The notes under the pieces were generated by a model that worked only from the letters and a program-made list of their open reading frames with translations, was not told the DNA's origin and ran no database searches. The position numbers and the translations under genes were made by a program. DNA of 29,444 nucleotides from positions 1 through 29,444 of the IMG/VR virus record IMGVR_UViG_3300035438_000885. One strand, given 5' to 3'. Positions 5,666-9,570 of this stretch are shown here, piece by piece. The stretch comes from a virus. Position 1 is the first letter of the stretch. Each line of letters begins with the position of its first letter.

Positions 5666-6061
5666 ATGAAACGAATTTACCATCCTTACGAAAAATGGGA
5701 GTGTTATAAAAATGGGATGTGGATTCCAACTACAAAGCAAGAAATAGAAACACAGCTAAATAATGCAATTTTATTTACTTCAAATCATGTAGAATATGGC
5801 AAAGCAATGAAAATTGTTTCTGAAAAATGGAGATTCGGAATGGAACATCATTTAACAGATACTGCTATAAACAAAAAAGCGTACATAGGGCATGCAGCAT
5901 GTAATTATAAATTTGGATGGTCAGAAGGGTTAGTAAGAATGGCATGGGGTCATTTAACAGATGAACAAAGAGATAAAGCAAATGCAGAAGCCGAAAAATA
6001 TATTAATTTTTGGATTTTAAGACACACTGAAAACGGTAATCAAATAAAATTATTCAATTGA
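5666..6061 (+). CDS. Hypothetical 131-aa protein with C-terminal QIKLF
   Basis: A 131-residue protein with a striking N-terminal HPYEKWECYKNGMW motif and a conserved-looking GHAACNYKFGWSEGLVR segment in the second half. I cannot assign a family. Its penultimate residues, QIKLF (126-130), match the beta-clamp-binding pentapeptide pattern Q-L-x-L-F with Ile in place of Leu. It begins the more AT-rich stretch that continues through the PP-loop ATPase cassette, and its TGA overlaps the next start. Possibly the first gene of that accessory cassette. Confidence 0.7.
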   Translation: MKRIYHPYEKWECYKNGMWIPTTKQEIETQLNNAILFTSNHVEYGKAMKIVSEKWRFGMEHHLTDTAINKKAYIGHAACNYKFGWSEGLVRMAWGHLTDEQRDKANAEAEKYINFWILRHTENGNQIKLFN

Positions 6062-6345
6062 AAGCTAAAATAATAGATTACATAAAAACATGGGAAAACA
6101 GGGGATATAAAAACGGCATACCAGATGAAGCCCCAATACTATTAGAGCAATTAGGAAAAGTTCCGTCATACAGAAAAATAGCAATAGCAATATTAAAAAA
6201 TGATTCATCTTTAAAAACTTTAGGATATACGCCAAAAAAATCAGTATATTATAATGTTTTAAAAAAAATAGAGATTGACGCAAGAACGGAACAGCATCCT
6301 AAATACAGAAAAAAAGTAAAAGACATTCAGCTAAAGTTATTTTAA
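6058..6345 (+). CDS. Free-standing copy of PAPS-reductase-family C-terminal domain
   Basis: A 95-residue protein starting at TTG (6058), which overlaps the preceding TGA. Residues 36-61 (PSYRKIAIAILKNDSSLKTL and following) closely parallel the C-terminal part of the PP-loop protein at 6588-7919 (TSWKRYAITILKNDHTCKYL, about residues 389-408). The N-terminal TWENRGYKNGIPDEAP segment recalls, from memory, the C-termini of IbrA/DUF3440-type phage PAPS reductases. It looks like a detached domain of that family. It ends in QLKLF (91-95), an almost ideal beta-clamp-binding peptide. TTG start is inferred from the overlap; no ATG fits. Confidence 0.7.
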   Translation: MKAKIIDYIKTWENRGYKNGIPDEAPILLEQLGKVPSYRKIAIAILKNDSSLKTLGYTPKKSVYYNVLKKIEIDARTEQHPKYRKKVKDIQLKLF

Positions 6346-6402: not shown

Positions 6403-6591
6403 ATGAAAAACAGAAAAAAAACATCGTTTACACTTGACATTGAAACAATGCAAGGGTTAAGCCACCTCGCTAAAATAAACAAAAGAAGTATGGCTAACAT
6501 GATAGATATTTTAGTGTCAGAAAAGCTAAAAGAAAGAGAAAACGAATTTTTTAACCACATGAATAAAAAAGAAAAAAACACACGCAAATGA
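6403..6591 (+). CDS. Small ribbon-helix-helix-like protein
   Basis: A 62-residue basic protein. The arrangement KKTSFTLDIETMQGLSHLAK, then NKRSMANMIDILVSEKLKE (about residues 5-45) fits a ribbon-helix-helix fold: a short beta strand with Thr/Thr-type DNA contacts, helix A, a turn around NKRS, then helix B. It is the first gene after the cassette promoter and overlaps the PP-loop ATPase as ATGA. An autoregulator of the cassette is the simplest inference. RHH proteins are short and divergent, so the call is moderate. Confidence 0.65.
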   Translation: MKNRKKTSFTLDIETMQGLSHLAKINKRSMANMIDILVSEKLKERENEFFNHMNKKEKNTRK

Positions 6592-7919
6592 AAAAATACA
6601 TAGGAGTAAACGTATACGATGCAGCAAATGAGCGCATTGATTATATATTTAAAAACTTTGAAAGGATATATCTTTCCTTTAGTGGCGGTAAAGATAGCGG
6701 GGTAATGCTTAACCTTGTTATTGATTACATGAGAAAAAACAACATTAAAAGGAAAATAGGCTTAATGACTTTAGATAATGAAGCCAACTATAATTTAAGC
6801 CTTGAATTTATGCATTCTATAGTATCAAAAAATTTAGACCTTTTTGATGTTTATTGGTGCTGTTTGCCTATCACATTGCCTTGTACCGTTTCTTCATTTA
6901 TGACCGATTGGCAGTGCTGGGGGGAGCATGAAAAAGATTTATGGATTAAGCCAATGCCTAAAGAAAAATACATTGTCAATATACATAATTGCCCTTTTGA
7001 TTTTTTTGAGGAGAATATGGGGTATCAGGAATTTTGGGATAAGTTTGGTGACTGGTATGGTCAAGGTAAAGAAGTTGCTTGCATGATTGGTATTAGAACA
7101 CATGAAAGCCTAAACAGATGGAGAGCAATAATGAACGAAGATAAACAAACGCATGGTGGTCATATGTGGACTAAGAAAAACACCAATTATGTTTATAACT
7201 GCTACCCTATTTACGATTGGAAAACTGAAGATATTTGGATTGCAAATGAAAAATTTGATTGGGAATATAATAAGTTGTATGACATATTTTGGAAAGCTGG
7301 TTTAAGCATTTATCAAATGCGTGTAGCTAGTCCATTTATGAGTGAAAGCAAATCTTCATTAAACCTGTATAGGGTTATAGACCCAAATATATGGGCAAGG
7401 CTATGTGGCAGAGTTGCTGGGGCTAACTTTATAGCTACTTACGGTAAGCAAATAAATTACAATTCATTTAAGCTACCAAAAGGACATACATGGAAGTCTT
7501 TTGTTAAATTCCTAATATCTACATTGCCTGAAGAAATATCAGAAAATTTTAAGAAGCGTTTCATTCAAAGTATAGCCTTTTGGTGGAGAGTGGGGCGTGG
7601 ATTGAGCCAAGAAGTAATAGAAGATTTGCGTAAAAACAATATACCATTTTTGTTAGGAGGGAACACTAATCATGGTAGGCAAGATAAAGAGAGGGTTAGA
7701 ATGTTACCGCAAGACCATTTAGATATGCTAAAATGCCATAATTCAGATGTTACATCATGGAAGCGATATGCAATTACTATTTTAAAGAATGACCATACTT
7801 GCAAGTATTTGGGGCTAATGCCAACAAAAGAACAAATGCAAAGACAAAAACAAATAGCAGAAAAATATAAAAACTTAGAAAAAACCAAAAACACACAAAA
7901 TGCAAATCAGAACAATTAA
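6588..7919 (+). CDS. PAPS-reductase-family PP-loop ATPase (IbrA-like)
   Basis: A 443-residue protein with the PP-loop signature SFSGGKDSG (about residues 30-38), which binds ATP pyrophosphate in PAPS reductases, DndC and related enzymes. Downstream GIRTHESLNRWRAIM and YPIYDWKTEDIWIA are typical of the IbrA/DUF3440 branch found in phages and plasmids, usually beside a ParB-fold partner, as here at 8926. Most of that branch has no assigned reaction; related enzymes adenylate or thiolate nucleic acids or small molecules. The C-terminal ~55 residues parallel the separate protein at 6058-6345. The end overlaps the next gene by 20 bases. Family call strong, substrate unknown. Confidence 0.88.
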   Translation: MKKYIGVNVYDAANERIDYIFKNFERIYLSFSGGKDSGVMLNLVIDYMRKNNIKRKIGLMTLDNEANYNLSLEFMHSIVSKNLDLFDVYWCCLPITLPCTVSSFMTDWQCWGEHEKDLWIKPMPKEKYIVNIHNCPFDFFEENMGYQEFWDKFGDWYGQGKEVACMIGIRTHESLNRWRAIMNEDKQTHGGHMWTKKNTNYVYNCYPIYDWKTEDIWIANEKFDWEYNKLYDIFWKAGLSIYQMRVASPFMSESKSSLNLYRVIDPNIWARLCGRVAGANFIATYGKQINYNSFKLPKGHTWKSFVKFLISTLPEEISENFKKRFIQSIAFWWRVGRGLSQEVIEDLRKNNIPFLLGGNTNHGRQDKERVRMLPQDHLDMLKCHNSDVTSWKRYAITILKNDHTCKYLGLMPTKEQMQRQKQIAEKYKNLEKTKNTQNANQNN

Positions 7920-8385
7920 CCAAATAAAGAACACCGAAAGAGATGTTAAGTTTACTGGCGGTAATAGCCTACGACTAATACTTGAATCCGATAATATGGG
8001 ATTTGCTTTTATGAAAACAATTATCCCTAAAGGTGGACCGCATAAATGGCACTATCCACATCATTTAGAATCTTGTTTTTGTATAGCTGGTAGTGGCATA
8101 CTTACCAACCTAACTAATGGAGATGTACACAATATTTTTGTTGATACAATCTATATATTAGACGGCAACGAGCCACACACGTTTGAAGCTACAGAAGATT
8201 GTGTATTGATTTCTGTTTTTAATCCACCATTAAGCGGTAATGAAGCGCACGACATAAACGGACATTATCCAAAATCAAACTACACAAAGGTTATTGCAAA
8301 AAAGATAGTTGCTGAATTAGATTGCTGCAAAAACAATTATGATGCTGTAGAAATAGTTGAATCCATACTAAACAACAATAAATGA
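7900..8385 (+). CDS. ectC: Ectoine synthase (EctC)-like cupin
   Basis: A 161-residue protein matching L-ectoine synthase along nearly its whole length: MQIRTINQIKNTERDV at the start, YPHHLESCFCIAGSG in the cupin core and SVFNPPLSGNEAHD before the end. EctC is an iron-dependent cupin that cyclises N-gamma-acetyl-diaminobutyrate. The iron ligands I recall from the Paenibacillus enzyme (E57, Y85, H93) all fall at identical positions here, as do R25, T40, Y52, H55, F107, E115 and H117; the recalled substrate residues W21 and N38 are replaced by G and M. No ectA or ectB is present. Start codon overlaps the PP-loop gene and the end overlaps the nuclease gene. Family strong; substrate may differ. 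Confidence 0.88.
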   Translation: MQIRTINQIKNTERDVKFTGGNSLRLILESDNMGFAFMKTIIPKGGPHKWHYPHHLESCFCIAGSGILTNLTNGDVHNIFVDTIYILDGNEPHTFEATEDCVLISVFNPPLSGNEAHDINGHYPKSNYTKVIAKKIVAELDCCKNNYDAVEIVESILNNNK

Positions 8386-8942
8386 AAAAGCCAAGCATAA
8401 GCAATTTGCTTAAAATATTAGATAAGCCTGCATTATTAAAATGGGCTAACAAAAAGGGTCTTGAAGGCGTAGATATTTCAGTATACACCCAAAAAGCTAT
8501 GAGTGAAGGGACTGCAATACACAGACAAATACAGTCTTATTTAGAAGATGGGGTTGCTTTTAATGATATGTACATGCAACATTGCTTTGAAACATTTATT
8601 TCTGATAAAGAAATATTAGGGTGCGAAAAAGAAATAGAAACAGATTATTTTGTTGGTAGGTACGACTTAAAAATAAGGTTAAAATCAAACAATAAAACAA
8701 TTTTAGTAGATTTTAAAAGCACAACAAGTGGAGCAAACAAAAAACTGTACATAGAAAATAAATTGCAACTTATAGCCTATGGAATGGCTGAAAATTGTGA
8801 TGATTTTGCAATAGTTACTTTGCCCGATTTCAGTTATATACCTTTTGAAGTTTTAGATAGAACACCATACGAAGAAATTATCAAGTCACTTTCTAACATT
8901 TACTTACTTAAAAAACAAATAGACAATGGAACAACTAACTAA
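8382..8942 (+). CDS. Cas4/RecB-type PD-(D/E)XK nuclease
   Basis: A 186-residue protein with all landmarks of the RecB/Cas4-like nuclease fold in order: GTAIHRQI (43-50, motif I), acidic CEKEIETDY (81-89), GRYDL with Asp95, the catalytic LVDFKST (D110-x-K112), and LQLIAYGMA (Q129...Y133, the QxxxY motif). No Cys cluster for an iron-sulphur site is apparent, unlike many Cas4 proteins. It starts at an ATGA overlap with the EctC-like gene and overlaps the ParB-like gene by 17 bases. It may act with the cassette proteins or with the Sak4-like ATPase as an end-processing exonuclease; the sequence does not decide. Confidence 0.85.
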   Translation: MKKPSISNLLKILDKPALLKWANKKGLEGVDISVYTQKAMSEGTAIHRQIQSYLEDGVAFNDMYMQHCFETFISDKEILGCEKEIETDYFVGRYDLKIRLKSNNKTILVDFKSTTSGANKKLYIENKLQLIAYGMAENCDDFAIVTLPDFSYIPFEVLDRTPYEEIIKSLSNIYLLKKQIDNGTTN

Positions 8943-9570
8943 TTTAATCGAACAAATTAAACATTTACCAACAGATGAATTGGTAGAAACAATTAACAAA
9001 ATAAAACTTGCCTTACACGAAATTAGCCCATTTAGTAAAGAACCAGTTGATTGTGTTTTATGGGTTAAAAACTCTATGGTTAAGGCTAATGATTATAACC
9101 CTAACAGCGTTGCCCCGCCTGAAATGGAACTGTTAAAGCAATCAATATTAGAAGATGGCTATACACAACCAATAGTATCTTTTAATGACGATGGTAACAT
9201 TATTGTTGTAGATGGATTTCACAGGAATAGAGTAGGTAGAGAATGTAAAGATGTAGAACAAAGAATACATGGATATTTACCAGTAGTAAATATTAATCAA
9301 TGGAAAACTGGTAAGTCTGATAGGATGGCTTCAACCATACGACATAACAGGGCTAGAGGTTCTCACAACATAGAGTTAATGAGTACTATAGTTACTGAAT
9401 TAGTAGAAATGGGGAAAGGTGATTCATGGATATGCGCACACATAGGAATGAGTAAAGATGAATTGTTGAGAATGAAACAAATTACAGGGCTGTCATCTCT
9501 ATTTAAAAATAAAGACTTTTCGCAAGCATGGGAAGCGGATAGCATAGTTGAACAAGAAGAAAACGCCTAA
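8926..9570 (+). CDS. ParB-fold protein (IbrB-like)
   Basis: A 214-residue ParB/sulfiredoxin-fold protein. YNPNSVAPPEMELLKQSI (57-74) and EDGYTQPIV lead to VVDGFHRNRVG (94-104), the box equivalent to the ParB GERR/nucleotide-binding element; RMASTIRHNRARGSH (133-147) is characteristic of the IbrB branch that accompanies IbrA-type PP-loop proteins. A likely helix-turn-helix follows (WICAHIGMSKDELLRMKQIT, 168-187). In Escherichia coli the IbrA/IbrB pair was described as activating immunoglobulin-binding genes; mechanism remains unsettled. It closes the accessory cassette. Confidence 0.85.
   Translation: MEQLTNLIEQIKHLPTDELVETINKIKLALHEISPFSKEPVDCVLWVKNSMVKANDYNPNSVAPPEMELLKQSILEDGYTQPIVSFNDDGNIIVVDGFHRNRVGRECKDVEQRIHGYLPVVNINQWKTGKSDRMASTIRHNRARGSHNIELMSTIVTELVEMGKGDSWICAHIGMSKDELLRMKQITGLSSLFKNKDFSQAWEADSIVEQEENA

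Follow-up and report, generated by a model that had tools for sequence, protein, structure and literature searches.

An ectoine-synthase-like gene within a conserved phage cassette

The stretch of DNA analysed here, hereafter the window, is the 29,444 nucleotides of the IMG/VR virus record IMGVR_UViG_3300035438_000885. It contains, within less than 4 kb, a run of genes centred on an open reading frame (ATG at 7900, stop at 8385) related to ectoine synthase, EctC (Table 1). Just upstream lies a gene for an IbrA-type protein. Downstream, a PD-(D/E)XK gene is followed by a gene for an IbrB-type, ParB-like protein. Two small genes precede this group.

Table 1. Coordinates of the window genes, and of genes in other contigs discussed in the text (L numbers are our labels for retrieved loci and contigs).
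Sequence	Position	Strand	Feature	Identification
window	5666..6061	+	small1, 131 aa, all-helical protein of unknown family	cassette member
window	6058..6345	+	small2, 95 aa, like the C-terminal end of DUF3440	cassette member; PF11922 1.3e-5 (positions 139-178)
window	6403-6591		small ribbon-helix-helix (Arc-like) gene just before IbrA	also present in L001
window	6588..7919	+	IbrA-type PP-loop protein, 443 aa (PAPS reductase-like domain plus DUF3440)	PF11922 2.4e-58; phrog_2302 4e-109
window	7900..8385	+	EctC-like cupin, 161 aa	residues 1-125 Ectoine_synth, then a C-terminal helical extension
window	8382..8942	+	PD-(D/E)XK exonuclease-like gene between EctC and IbrB	occasional member, not core; PF12705 3.8e-4; phrog_298 2e-11
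window	8926..9570	+	IbrB-type ParB-like protein, 214 aa	phrog_2159 2e-72
L142	3868-4617		1-Cys peroxiredoxin-like gene between IbrA and IbrB
L274 (contig of L050)	6843-8342		EctC, methyltransferase-like middle part and IbrB in one protein, 499 aa
L003	8890-9264		small ORF, GIY-YIG-type by eye
L067	4510-5259		small ORF, GIY-YIG-type by eye
L068	4666-4980		small ORF, GIY-YIG-type by eye	no Pfam hit
L070	2532-2849		small ORF, GIY-YIG-type by eye

A preliminary description of this sequence had recognized an EctC-like enzyme that keeps the iron ligands of the family, and this observation is confirmed. The protein matches Pfam Ectoine_synth (PF06339) over almost the whole model (E 1.6e-39, 135.5 bits for a cut-off of 27), passes the cut-off of the NCBIfam ectoine synthase model NF009806 (140.5 bits for 128), and has ectoine synthases as its best solved relatives (5bxx, E 5.9e-25). 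PHROGs holds no family matched by any of 59 EctC sequences. The finding would have fallen had an alignment shown that the iron ligands were lost, or that the protein belonged to another cupin family: neither is the case. The residues read off the translation are G21, R25, M38, T40, Y52, H55, E57, Y85, H93, F107, E115 and H117, as described, with the ligands E57, Y85 and H93 in place. This numbering fits the EctC of S. alaskensis as aligned here, while in the P. lautus enzyme the ligands are E57, Y84 and H92 (PMC6344544). Superposition of a predicted structure on EctC, also proposed in advance as a check, gave the same answer: the AlphaFold2 model, built on 59 relatives (pLDDT 90.5), is a cupin barrel with a helical C-terminal extension, and in structure alignment (VIA-align) it matches 5bxx_B at Z 19.8 (rmsd 1.0 over 113 residues), ectoine synthases as a group scoring 18.8-19.8 and all other listed cupins 13.4 or less. 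When compared with its 95% identical copy in another contig, L001, the gene has a dN/dS of 0.13, so that it is under purifying selection.

Two points of the description need correction. The replacement of N38 had been listed together with that of W21 as a departure from EctC. The window has M38, but all 23 sequences of our bona fide set have H38; this position does not discriminate and tells neither for nor against a bona fide synthase, which leaves only the lost W21 to set the phage protein apart. The gene had also been called an orphan, of a kind not known in a phage. It is neither solitary nor alone among phages. Four GenBank records of three phages share its context: Mycobacterium phages Gaia (two records) and Nebkiss have a PAPS reductase followed by a single protein holding EctC and ParB, and Pseudoalteromonas phage XCL1123 has the three side by side. 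One of the Gaia records (gp104) and XCL1123 already carry the annotation 'ectoine synthase/ParB multidomain protein'. IbrA and IbrB of Gaia and XCL1123 are 63-67% identical to those of the window, EctC 42-44%, and small1 is shared as well. In the window, unlike Gaia, EctC and ParB are apart, with the PD-(D/E)XK gene between them.

How general is this arrangement? A scan of 2.9 million viral contigs returned 131 EctC relatives, of which 80 were retrieved; a scan for IbrB returned 358, of which 80 were retrieved. Together with the named phages these give at least 95 distinct phage EctC sequences, with IbrA in 91, IbrB in 93, small1 in 87 and EctB in none. When only the loci with 2.5 kb or more on both sides are kept, IbrA is found in 52 of 52, IbrB in 52 of 52 and small1 in 49 of 52. 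Because 23 of the 95 come from routes other than the EctC alignment scan, mostly from the IbrB scan, where the presence of IbrB is by construction, we counted separately the 72 distinct sequences found through EctC: 70 have IbrA, 70 IbrB and 66 small1, and the well-flanked figures are 37 of 37, 37 of 37 and 35 of 37. The commonest order is IbrA-EctC-IbrB-small1 (60 of 95), and EctC and IbrB share one open frame in 27 of 95. A fifth gene, small2, is present in 83 of the 95 EctC cassettes (47 of the 52 well-flanked) and in 1 of 16 EctC-less ones, as counted with a profile built from EctC-bearing cassettes. The search for EctB is sensitive enough to be trusted: 19 of 20 loci fetched from ordinary genomes of one actinobacterial family, that of the Mycobacteriaceae, show EctB next to EctC.

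Seen from the other side, EctC is present in 21 of 37 well-flanked IbrB loci and lacking in 16, hence it is not needed for every IbrAB function. On a tree of phage IbrA proteins (48 of the 93 EctC-bearing rows and 16 EctC-less ones) the EctC-bearing proteins lie together, with two changes where shuffling gives a mean of about 14. They carry C91, C92, C99, C110 and C273 in 98% or more, while the EctC-less ones mostly have V91, N99 and V273, with C92 in half and C110 in three quarters. The exceptions are L102 and L142. These five cysteines might hold an iron-sulfur cluster or a persulfide. The pair resembles IbrA/IbrB of the E. coli YbdN/YbdM type, a DUF3440 PP-loop protein next to a ParB-like protein, the EctC-bearing IbrA forming a separate branch of the phage tree, on which YbdN itself was not placed. 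IbrA and IbrB have only weak PDB relatives by sequence. IbrA also matches models of DndC, of Dnd phosphorothioation, but weakly (PADLOC 4e-8; TIGR03183, 21.7 bits for a cut-off of 290.4), DndD and DndE not having been searched for. As for small1, prediction gives a high-confidence seven-helix model without any PDB match at E below 0.001, and its members share no Pfam family; a viral scan with small1 itself found only 4 loci, because its patterns were poor, and was not used for counts.

The phage enzymes form a clade of their own. A phylogeny of phage and bacterial EctC, which had been suggested beforehand, was built from 107 sequences: 50 phage rows including the window, three cassette rows from metagenome-assembled genomes (MAGs), 31 of 77 bacterial orphans and 23 rows labelled bona fide, one of which (L239) had no EctB seen in its short flank. 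The phage and MAG cassette rows form one side of a branch with SH-aLRT 99, although only 126 columns were used. Across 94 distinct phage EctCs (L043 was dropped when the set behind the EctC profile was built), E57 and Y85 are kept in 94 of 94 and H93 in 92 of 94, and S23, R25, T40, Y52, H55, E115 and H117 in 94 of 94 each; Cys59 and Cys61 are also conserved. In the pocket segment 15-24, by contrast, tryptophan is found in 1 of 50 phage sequences, as against 31 of 31 orphans and 23 of 23 bona fide sequences. The phages have phenylalanine there instead (49 of 50 within 18-24), and a new W50 (44 of 50). W21 is reported as conserved in 437 EctCs and, sometimes shifted, in 145 orphans, and its change to alanine leaves 9.7% of the activity of the P. 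lautus enzyme (PMC6344544). The window protein keeps the fold, the iron ligands, S23, R25, T40, Y52, F107 and the lid residues E115 and H117 of the solved synthases (S. alaskensis 5bxx and 5by5; P. lautus 5onm, 5onn and 5ono), at 34-35% identity in structure alignment, but lacks the pocket tryptophan and ectA/ectB neighbours and lies next to, or in other phages is fused with, IbrA/IbrB genes.

For bacterial solitary EctCs, a scan of a genome collection gave 301 relatives, of which 80 were retrieved: 3 are cassettes of the phage type (L158, L159 and L174), and 77 are bacterial EctCs without IbrA/IbrB. The latter (L160-L237 except L174) share Cys59 and Cys61 with the phage proteins, though the pattern used for the scan selected for these, have no EctB close by in nearly all loci, and keep the tryptophan, mostly shifted to position 18. 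Their gene neighbours are varied, a crude clustering finding no constant partner, and their function is open. Whether the group-1 orphan EctC of M. abscessus (PMC5924519) belongs to prophage cassettes was not tested; among the rows listed for 301 genomes of one family, sampled one per species, identity to Gaia EctC was only 28-38%.

A telling addition is EctD, the ectoine hydroxylase, the natural next enzyme after EctC. In two phage contigs, L050 and L075, a PhyH-family gene sits between IbrA and EctC, and its best solved relative is EctD (3emr, E 1e-43 and 1e-76, respectively; 4mhr is another solved EctD). The NCBIfam EctD model gives 172.8 and 284.5 bits, below its cut-off of 336.5. A third case, L174, a 3.2 kb contig of an Acidobacteria MAG, has IbrA, an EctC-IbrB fusion and an EctD above that cut-off (373.3). 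Of the 15 fixed positions of the published EctD signature (PMC5924519), counted by eye, L174 keeps 15, L075 14 and L050 13. The two phage EctD proteins are only 35% identical to each other, and a scan of all viral contigs of IMG/VR found no EctD-like gene besides these two. Both contigs carry phage-type genes, an endolysin, an exonuclease and NinB in one, a DnaC-like loader in the other. EctA was found in 0 of 20 records searched and EctB in 0 of 19 virus records, while the bacterial MAG has aminotransferases below the EctB cut-off. As ectD was stated to occur only with the full ect set and to be absent from orphan-ectC organisms (PMC3979721), EctC plus EctD without EctA/EctB is an arrangement not described there. 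In L050 the EctC-IbrB protein also holds a middle domain that looks by eye like a class I methyltransferase, with only weak Pfam support (FtsJ, E 0.015).

What can be made of this? The analysis itself establishes that the protein is an EctC-family, Fe-type cupin of a phage-specific clade and a regular part of a cassette IbrA-EctC-IbrB-small1-small2, often fused to IbrB; what it does there is inferred. Our preferred reading, tentative and held with slightly less than even confidence, is that of a working enzyme performing an ectoine-type reaction: the iron would hold an amide carbonyl, a neighbouring amine would attack it, water would leave and a cyclic amidine would form. In this view the substrate is not delivered by EctA/EctB, but made or held by IbrA, a PP-loop ATP-using enzyme, and IbrB, a ParB-like nucleotide- or DNA-binding protein, and a few cassettes then hydroxylate the ring with an EctD-type dioxygenase. 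The kept catalytic residues and the EctD partners argue for a working ectoine-type enzyme, while the absence of EctA/EctB, the constant IbrA/IbrB and the fusions argue that its substrate comes from that pair and not from the ectoine pathway. Neither substrate nor purpose has been identified, no activity or product is known, the pocket tryptophan is absent, and EctD occurs in only three cassettes. Furthermore, in L142, a cassette whose IbrA belongs to the EctC-bearing branch, a peroxiredoxin stands where EctC would be, which fits a redox role as well as a ring-forming one. The interpretation offered in the preliminary description is supported only in part: the family, the ligands, the pocket altered at W21 and the missing ectA/ectB hold, the orphan status and the absence of any known phage case do not, and a different substrate is plausible, since the tryptophan is lost in nearly all phage members, but unproven, the EctD-type hydroxylases suggesting that the product is still ectoine-like.

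The product may be free or attached to a nucleotide or nucleic acid. The latter is suggested, not shown, by the IbrB fusion and by the neighbouring genes: in 17 sampled loci (147 ORFs) the families matched most often are those of replication and recombination. Pushed further, this gives a speculative and rather unlikely scenario, which our data nevertheless do not rule out, where EctC, with EctD in some phages, builds and hydroxylates an ectoine-like cyclic amidine on a nucleotide or on nucleic acid, IbrA activating or loading the substrate and IbrB, sometimes in one chain with EctC, bringing it to DNA, so that the phage would carry a hitherto unknown hypermodification, perhaps against host defence. 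If the ring is put on a nucleotide or on DNA it would be a new kind of modification; if it is free ectoine, it would be a compatible-solute pathway taken up by phages without its first two steps.

Among the alternatives, all of them doubtful, the one that survives best is that the EctC fold has been reused for other metal-cupin chemistry (amide hydrolysis, dehydration or a thiol/redox step, for example) on a substrate unlike ectoine, the EctD genes being chance neighbours. The exchange of the pocket tryptophan for phenylalanine, the new W50, the conserved Cys59 and Cys61, the cysteines of the EctC-bearing IbrA (C91, C99 and C273 being mostly absent from the EctC-less ones) and the peroxiredoxin of L142 speak in its favour. 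Against it stand the three cassettes with EctD, two of them with widely divergent phage proteins, and the nearly intact EctD signature. Almost as possible, but still unlikely, is an auxiliary metabolic gene for plain ectoine, turning N-gamma-acetyl-diaminobutyrate made by the host's EctA/EctB into ectoine (and EctD into hydroxyectoine) to protect the infected cell or virion; this conversion was not assayed. The EctC family and catalytic residues and the EctD-type genes are consistent with it, and EctC is common in the family sampled around a Corynebacterium genome (252 of 301 genomes match), which in GTDB also holds Mycobacterium, so that the precursor may be present in some hosts. However, no EctA or EctB was found in the virus records searched, the constant partners are IbrA/IbrB and not ect genes, W21 is lost in nearly all, and two scans of IMG/VR with canonical EctC sequences found only cassette members, within the reach of a single-protein scan and two short patterns. 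A host ect operon carried as cargo was rejected as the general case, since no EctB lies beside any of the 95 phage EctCs and these canonical EctC scans, within the same limited reach, found no other phage EctC. Finally, a non-catalytic sensor, in which the cupin binds a metabolite or metal and controls the ParB-like partner, like the cupin domains of transcription factors, is improbable, despite the fusions to IbrB, the HTH/XRE-family regulators with cupin domains listed at lower rank by Foldseek and the description of IbrA/IbrB as co-activators of prophage gene expression (table note in PMC4490671), because the iron ligands and lid residues are kept in 92 to 94 of 94 sequences, more than a binding domain needs, and because of the EctD neighbours.

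EctC, EctD, IbrA and IbrB are all known, and EctC next to ParB is on record in the GenBank annotations cited above; our searches of open papers, a library without most subscription articles, showed no account of the cassette or of phage EctC/EctD. The role of solitary EctC proteins and that of the widespread IbrA/IbrB pair are both open questions, and a cassette that ties them together, sometimes fuses them and sometimes adds EctD makes both testable in cultured phages with laboratory hosts (Gaia on M. smegmatis mc2 155, XCL1123 on Pseudoalteromonas marina). One further GenBank record with EctC, MT835761 (L005), was deposited as 'Bacteriophage sp.' but reads as a bacterial stretch, an EctB-like aminotransferase followed by EctC, and we used it as a bacterial control and not as a phage. 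Lastly, small ORFs that look by eye like GIY-YIG-type proteins lie inside or beside the cassette in L003, L067, L068 and L070; the only one compared with Pfam, that of L068, had no hit.
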